Below are positions 54,223-55,173 of a stretch of 64,000 bases of DNA, piece after piece. Numbering within the stretch: the first letter of the stretch is position 1; the number at the start of each line of letters is the position of its first letter. The stretch is taken from contig NZ_BJDO01000007.1 in assembly GCF_005405185.1 (NCBI RefSeq), positions 8,871 through 72,870 of the forward strand, in the 5' to 3' direction. The position numbers and the translations under genes were made by a program. This stretch comes from Secundilactobacillus hailunensis (lineage in GTDB: Bacteria; Bacillota; Bacilli; Lactobacillales; Lactobacillaceae). A model generated the notes under the pieces. The model was given only the letters and a program-made list of their open reading frames with translations, was not told the origin of the DNA and searched no databases.

Positions 54223-54290
54223 GAAATTGATTCCCCTCAATCATTTTTGTTATAGTTGCTAGGTAATCCTGATCGGTTTAATAACCGTCA

Positions 54291-54324
54291 AATTAACCGA
54301 CTGCCATAATAGTAGTCGGTTAAT
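54291..54324 (-). terminator. Possible terminator of the HPr-like gene
   Basis: AATTAACCGACT and AGTCGGTTAATT form a perfect 12-bp stem just after the stop; the following minus-strand tract has only a short T run. Confidence 0.6.
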
Positions 54325-54333
54325 TGACAAGTA

Positions 54334-54600
54334 TTAAATTCTGGTTACTAGTTGCTGATCAACTAGGCTCGAAACAACTGACTTCAACTGCTCCGTGGTG
54401 CCATCAACACTTAGGTCAATTTTGGCGCCGCTGGGAACACCCAGGCTCATAACGCCCAGCGAACTGTTAGCAGTTGTTTTGGTCCCATTATAAGCCAGTG
54501 TAATATCAAAATCGTATTTGGCTAATTCGTTGGTTAACTGGTTAACAACGTCGCCTGTTAATCCTTCTGATGAAATGACTTTAACAGTAGTACTTACCAA
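54334..54600 (-). CDS. HPr-like protein lacking His15 but with Ser46 (Crh-like)
   Basis: 88 residues with the HPr fold pattern, including LGVMSLGVPSGAKIDLSVDG, which matches HPr and Crh in the Ser46 region. Position 15 is Thr (GLTGDVV in place of GIHARPA), so it cannot accept phosphate from Enzyme I; Ser46 is conserved, although the residue before it is Asn, not Lys. Bacillus Crh has the same logic and acts as a CcpA corepressor when HPr kinase phosphorylates Ser46. TTG 54600 follows GAGGTG by seven bases. Also possible: a decayed HPr with another role. Confidence 0.75.
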   Translation of the reverse strand: MVSTTVKVISSEGLTGDVVNQLTNELAKYDFDITLAYNGTKTTANSSLGVMSLGVPSGAKIDLSVDGTTEQLKSVVSSLVDQQLVTRI

Positions 54601-54780
54601 TCTCAACACCTCATTTTAGATAAAATTATGATCTGTTTCGAATAATCCTGTGGTTCAGTGTAAAAGATGAATGCACTCGAAGAACACCGCTTGGTCAGCG
54701 GTTATTACTATGATAGCATGGTATGTGAATAAAGCAAAAGCAGATGCAACTATTAATGGAATTTAATTAAAGAGGGGGTT

Positions 54781-55173
54781 ATGATGCGTTTTCAGGATTT
54801 AGTACCAATTGAATTGAACACGATTGAAGCTTCAACCGTCTATCGAGCTGATAAACCCCGACCGAAACAGCATGATTGGCAGCTGGACTGGGAACGGTTA
54901 CGGCAGCTGATCTTAGATAATAGTGAACGGCTGGATGAAGTTAAAGCCGGTATCGCGGAGGACTGGGTGCGCACTCACGGGACCATCTGGGATCGCACCC
55001 GCGGTTTTTACCGCCGGCCCAATGATCACTATGACTACGATGATACGGTCTTTTGGGGCTATTCATCATGGGGTACGCCGGCCATTTCGTTCATCTTCGC
55101 GGATGAAACGGAAGCTTCTTATCAGCTATACAGGGACGGTATGGATTATAATTACCATTATTTAGGGCAATGA
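54781..55173 (+). CDS. Hypothetical soluble protein, 130 residues
   Basis: An acidic, aromatic-rich protein (WELDWERLR-like helical start; later YDYDDTVFWGYSSWGTPAISFIF; end YNYHYLGQ). No signal peptide or membrane helix. I do not recognise the family. It starts after a strong GAGGGGG and lies divergent from the HPr-like gene and 25 bases before mvaS, so it is probably co-transcribed with mvaS. ATG at 54784 is an equally possible start. Confidence 0.65.
   Translation: MMRFQDLVPIELNTIEASTVYRADKPRPKQHDWQLDWERLRQLILDNSERLDEVKAGIAEDWVRTHGTIWDRTRGFYRRPNDHYDYDDTVFWGYSSWGTPAISFIFADETEASYQLYRDGMDYNYHYLGQ

Follow-up and report, generated by a model that had tools for sequence, protein, structure and literature searches.

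The 88-aa protein encoded at positions 54334..54600 (minus strand) of the window, the whole 64,000 nt stretch of Secundilactobacillus hailunensis DNA that was analysed, is a new variant within the HPr family, a non-phosphotransfer paralogue with a re-specified docking face that beyond this may act as a docking regulator. This assignment is supported by a predicted HPr fold, the loss of His15 and Arg17, an invariant new face, dN/dS values that are low among closely related copies and a kept gene place.

Gene structure and assignment to the HPr family

The original prediction recognized an HPr-family protein at these coordinates without giving the strand, and the reading frame turned out to be real. 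It starts with TTG (54600-54598) and ends with a stop codon at 54336-54334, with TTG or GTG as the start codon in all 13 copies of the gene found in the genus. The start is preceded by a ribosome-binding region (GAGGTGTT plus spacer, window 54601..54612, minus strand); GAGGTGTT or GGGGTGTT occupies this place in all rows of the 13-genome alignment, and G(A/G)GGTGTT is found in 13/13 genomes. The protein scored 45.5 bits against PF00381 (cut-off 23) and 47.6 against TIGR01003, narrowly below the cut-off of 47.9, and its residues 2-71 aligned without a gap to HPr chains of solved structure (E 6.9e-10), so HPr numbering is valid for it. The Pfam score, the ungapped alignment and the conservation together rule out a chance ORF, and a pseudogene is ruled out by conservation, the frame being open and carrying invariant residues in 13/13 genomes.

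In HPr numbering the window paralogue has Thr15, Gly16, Asp17, Asn45, Ser46, Ser47 and Leu48. Thr in place of the phosphorylatable His15, a Ser at position 46 and an Asn before it had all been read correctly. The string SLGVMSLG, proposed as the context of Ser46, is present too, but it starts at Ser47, one residue after Ser46 (Asn45-Ser46-Ser47-Leu48), which means that Ile47 and Met48 of HPr have also been changed; the absence of Arg17 and Pro18 had been missed. Where PTS phosphocarrier HPr has His15 followed by Ala-Arg-Pro, all 13 copies have Thr15-Gly16-Asp/Glu17, and with Thr in place of His15 (and an acidic residue in place of Arg17) the paralogue cannot take PTS phosphate on residue 15. 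A separate, genuine ptsH exists in the same genome (L001:1495-1761, encoding GIHARPAT...LKSIMGVMSLG), as do ptsI, hprK, ccpA and whiA. By eye, a glycosyltransferase-like ORF follows downstream of this ptsH.

An AlphaFold2 model of the paralogue, built from 11 sequences, reached a pLDDT of 82.9 and a pTM of 0.71 and consists of strand 2-8, helix 17-26, strands 33-37 and 40-43, helix 47-51, strand 60-65, helix 69-81 and a short extra strand at 85-87; model confidence was lowest for residues 41-50 (mean 66), which contain the Ser46 loop. In Foldseek comparisons the model matched HPr from the HprK/P complex (1kkl_I) with a TM score of 0.83 and an rmsd of 1.8, and Crh from the CcpA complex (1zvv_J) with a TM score of 0.78. 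The paralogue is thus predicted to keep the open-faced beta-alpha-beta-beta-alpha-beta-alpha fold of HPr.

The docking face of the paralogue differs from that of HPr

The paralogue resembles the HPr (PtsH) of Lactobacillaceae in length, ungapped alignment, fold, Gly13, Leu22, Ser46 and the GVMSLG core, but it lacks His15, Ala16, Arg17, Pro18, Lys45, Ile47 and Met48 and its helix A has been rewritten. We counted residues in the 13 Secundilactobacillus paralogues and the 15 ptsH products of the genus. In the replaced active-site loop and helix A (codons 14-26, L-T15-G16-D17-V-V-N-Q-L-T-N-E-L in the window, 54523..54561, minus strand), all paralogues have Thr15 and Gly16 where all ptsH products have His and Ala; position 17 is Asp in ten and Glu in three paralogues versus Arg in all 15 ptsH products, position 18 is variable and never Pro versus an invariant Pro, and positions 19-26 read VNQLTNEL in 13/13 paralogues versus ATLLVQ(A/S)A in HPr. 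In the Ser46 loop and helix B (codons 45-56, N45-S46-S47-L48-G49-V50-M51-S52-L53-G54-V55-P56, window 54433..54468, minus strand), position 45 is Asn in nine and Thr in four paralogues versus 15 Lys, Ser47 and Leu48 (13 each) stand against Ile and Met (15 each), and Pro56 in all 13 stands against Gly in all 15, whereas Ser46 and the following GVMSLGV (49-55) are common to both proteins. From S46 to P56 the paralogues are invariant in 13/13.

Invariant positions of the paralogue gather in this face (22/27 in residues 13-27 plus 45-56 versus 11/60 elsewhere), with a Fisher p of 2.8e-8 that serves as a guide only, as related sequences are treated as independent and the limits of the face were drawn from general knowledge of HPr anatomy after the alignment had been seen. 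The face is therefore constrained, largely to residues other than those of HPr. The ptsH products show the same concentration (26/27 in the face versus 29/59 elsewhere), so the counts speak for constraint on the face and not for the identity of a partner. Judged from the alignments, one face constrained to different residues in the two proteins fits a change of specificity and not decay.

Comparison with Crh

Bacillus Crh lacks His15 but retains the other residues of the HPr docking face, namely Arg17, Pro18, Lys45, Ile47 and Met48, and its gene adjoins whiA in Bacillus. In published complexes, residue 17, Lys45, Ile47, Met48 and helix A are used by HPr and Crh at the interfaces with CcpA and HPrK. 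The paralogue was originally described as Crh-like, and part of that description stands: it has the HPr fold, no His15 and Ser46 in 13/13 copies, and it occurs in a genome that also has a separate ptsH, hprK and ccpA. The rest of the docking face does not fit. What was taken for the defining Crh pattern is broken by the loss of Arg17, Pro18, Lys45 and Ile47-Met48 and by a mostly changed helix A, with Asp/Glu17, a non-Pro residue 18, Asn/Thr45, Ser47 and Leu48 in 13/13 copies. Neither do sequence score or gene place point to Crh, since the best HPr chain scored 42.3 bits and the best Crh chain 25.2 bits, and whiA is located on contig C2 while the paralogue is on C7, more than 27 kb from either end. 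Residue 15 of Crh is Gln (PMC9631020). The accompanying view that Crh is confined to bacilli does not fully hold, as a BLAST match to Crh has been reported for Thermoanaerobacterium saccharolyticum (PMC3526391).

These data bear on the possibility that the paralogue works as a Crh, with HPrK/P phosphorylating Ser46 at high levels of glycolytic intermediates and the Ser46-P form co-repressing through CcpA. Such a function would agree with the missing His15, Ser46 in 13/13 copies, the kept helix B core GVMSLG and the gene content of the genus, in which hprK was found in 15/15 genomes (in two pieces in G013) and ccpA in 14/15 at E 1e-100, with none at that limit in G009; ptsI is likewise present in 15/15. 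The hprK search was of limited sensitivity, missing Bacillus subtilis, which has HPrK, as did the whiA search, but the 15 positive genomes are unaffected, and the carrier G013 is a rough assembly with 7% contamination in which both hprK and ptsI are in pieces. However, an invariably acidic residue 17, the changes of Lys45, Ile47 and Met48, the rewritten helix A and the lower score to Crh than to HPr all argue against it, and an I47T change in streptococcal HPr reportedly weakened the action of HPrK. Furthermore, because E. coli HPr has Ser46 although E. coli has no HPrK, conservation of Ser46 is weak evidence for control by this kinase. We therefore consider a functional Crh improbable.

Equally improbable in our judgement is an antagonist, which would bind HPrK/P or another HPr partner as a poor substrate and so tune the phosphorylation of the real HPr. 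The combination of a kept helix B surface (GVMSLG) with altered substrate surroundings (Lys45, Ile47, Met48) and the changes at His15 and Arg17 is what such a protein might show, and hprK is available in 15/15 genomes. Yet hprK is also present in the two genomes without the paralogue, and helix A, which shares this face with helix B, is now unlike HPr, so that affinity for HPr partners should drop. Still far less probable is a new phospho-switch at the old active site with Thr15 as acceptor for a Ser/Thr kinase; Thr15 is invariant in 13/13 copies, but so is Gly16, and residue 17 is always acidic; Thr15 may therefore simply shape the loop.

Distribution and gene neighbourhood

The paralogue was found in 13/15 Secundilactobacillus genomes examined, including that of the window, and Ser46 is conserved in all 13 orthologues, as the original prediction needed it to be. 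A whole-genome search did not find it in the remaining two (G005 and G008), and the genus can therefore live without it. In G008 the contig continues for 1.6 kb beyond mvaS with no copy of the gene; in G005 only 539 bp separate mvaS from the contig end, so the absence from this genome rests on the whole-genome search. All 10 named relatives returned for the paralogue locus belong to Secundilactobacillus, with identities of 86% in S. silagei and 58% in S. kimchicus; S. collinoides DSM 20515 is a carrier as well.

Outside the genus, we surveyed a sample of 397 Lactobacillaceae genomes and one of 249 genomes from the phylum, neither of which is the whole group. No window-type copy was found in the 382 Lactobacillaceae outside the genus, where the best match, L041 at E 1.1e-9, proved to be a canonical His15-bearing HPr. 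A second gene of the HPr family (PF00381) occurs in only 23 of these genomes (13 of genus g14, nine of g16 and one of g17), none of them window-type. In the phylum sample, which was searched with the alignment, no window-type copy was found in the 248 other genomes, and the three hits passing E 1e-12 are the window's own genome and two canonical HPrs. A mobile or phage-borne gene was also considered and rejected, as plasmids and phages yielded only distant HPr-type matches (one plasmid record at 38.6% and one phage record at 39.7%, the latter not annotated).

The neighbours named in the original prediction, a protein of no known family and mvaS, are indeed there, and both are divergent from the paralogue. 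In all 13 carriers the paralogue lies within about 2.2 kb of mvaS and runs against it. Between the two in the window is the gene for a 130-aa protein (54781-55173) without a Pfam or NCBIfam match; this neighbour is present in 10/13 carriers and was not matched near mvaS in L087, L091 and L092. A GH25 match stands beside the paralogue in 9/13 carriers (in pieces in L091) and was not found there in L087, L089, L090 and L092. The place near mvaS is thus kept in 13/13 genomes while the GH25 and 130-aa neighbours vary. Beyond mvaS, lexA and two small genes were named by eye. Elsewhere in the genomes, ptsH and ptsI are on separate contigs in seven of the 15 genomes of the genus, including that of the window, and side by side in eight.

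An operon with mvaS was rejected, as the 130-aa gene and mvaS are divergent from the paralogue in the window and have the same orientation in each of the 12 other carriers that possesses them, and so was an operon with GH25, which adjoins the paralogue in 9/13 genomes only. From this gene order the paralogue appears to be transcribed alone. Just 3′ of its stop codon is an inverted repeat (window 54285..54330, minus strand) within a strong predicted hairpin (stretch 54276-54340, z -7.2), and several relatives have similar palindromes at the corresponding position. That the repeat is a terminator is only a guess; a terminator scan called none at the hairpin, and the promoter and terminator scan established neither element for the paralogue. 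Between the paralogue and the divergent gene there is a block TACCATGCTATCATAGTA(A/T)TAACC (window 54700-54723, minus strand) that is kept in 7/13 genomes and not recognizable in the other six. Expression under the control of CcpA was considered and rejected, as a scan of the 200 bp 5′ of the paralogue gave no cre-like site common to the 13 genomes; the best matches, in a scan without a chance control, had 1 to 4 mismatches at places that differ among genomes.

Selection and phylogeny

Between the three paralogue pairs with the lowest dS, dN/dS (NG86) was 0.036, 0.065 and 0.124, and in the fourth-lowest pair (L013/L015) it was 0.42. The median pN/pS was 0.30 for the paralogue (78 pairs) versus 0.13 for ptsH (105 pairs), which, together with the single pair at 0.42, indicates that the paralogue evolves faster than HPr. 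A decaying duplicate without function might leave such values and might be missing from 2/15 genomes, but the frame is open in 13/13 genomes, the three closest pairs have a low dN/dS and the invariant surface residues nearly refute this reading, which we regard as the least credible.

The paralogues form one clade (support 100/100) on a long branch, the deeper position of which is unsure because there are few columns and long branches. Grouping this clade with the ptsH genes of Secundilactobacillus lowers the fit, though not enough for rejection at the 0.05 level (AU test, p 0.082).

Other HPr-like paralogues in Lactobacillaceae

In genus g14, two HPr-family genes occur in 13/24 sampled genomes, the carriers of the second copy being L049, L051, L052, L058-L063, L070, L073, L077 and L080. 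None of these second copies has His15, which is replaced by Met in 11, Arg in one and Thr in one, and all 13 keep Arg17, Pro18, Lys45, Ser46 and Met48; position 47 is Ile in 12 and Val in one. Like the window paralogue, the g14 copy coexists with a canonical ptsH, lacks His15, keeps Ser46 and has Pro56 (in 12/13); unlike it, the g14 copy keeps Arg17, Pro18, Lys45, Met48 and Ile/Val47. By these residues the g14 paralogue is a much better Crh analogue than that of the window. Its neighbours differ among the five loci examined. In the tree, the g14 paralogues and those of the window type did not come together in a single clade, but a joint clade was not rejected by the AU test (p 0.474); the two may or may not share an origin.

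In nine genomes of genus g16 (L121-L129) we noticed a very divergent HPr-like protein (MKTIGFPL...) with neither His15 nor Ser46, scoring 21-24 bits against PF00381, with two below the cut-off. The second HPr in the single g17 genome (L120, G169) keeps His15, Arg17 and Ser46.

Discussion

The explanation that we favour, and to which we give a little better than an even chance, is a genus-level, neofunctionalised non-phosphotransfer HPr that acts as a stand-alone docking regulator through a re-cut face. Under this model the HPr fold would be kept while no PTS phosphate is accepted on residue 15, and the partner-binding face of HPr would have been re-cut and then frozen for a different partner in Secundilactobacillus. 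As the phosphate site is lost and most of the docking surface has been swapped for a conserved new one, the paralogue probably regulates rather than carries phosphate. The new face presumably binds a protein, and the binding would be regulatory; the partner would not be enzyme I and is probably not CcpA. Ser46 may serve as an HPrK-operated switch on this partner binding, a role that we consider conceivable but rather doubtful. A wider scenario, which we put forward tentatively and think somewhat unlikely, is that lactobacilli evolved a class of non-phosphotransfer HPrs, consisting of a Crh analogue in g14 that keeps the CcpA/HPrK face and, in Secundilactobacillus, a dedicated docking regulator whose partner would be new to both HPr and Crh, maybe from one His15-less ancestor.

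HPr is a classic small protein that is both phosphate carrier and regulator. We found no paper on the Secundilactobacillus or g14 paralogue in the open-licence part of PubMed Central. Current models give some His15-less proteins the name "phosphocarrier protein HPr", which is a warning for annotation: of the 13 g14 paralogues, four were tested against the HPr equivalog model PRK13780, and two passed its cut-off. Should HPrK act on Ser46 of the g14 paralogues, the range of Crh-type regulators would come to include lactobacilli. In Secundilactobacillus, the loss of the carrier role and the fixation of a different face in 13 genomes constitute a natural experiment on which surface residues of HPr specify which partner.
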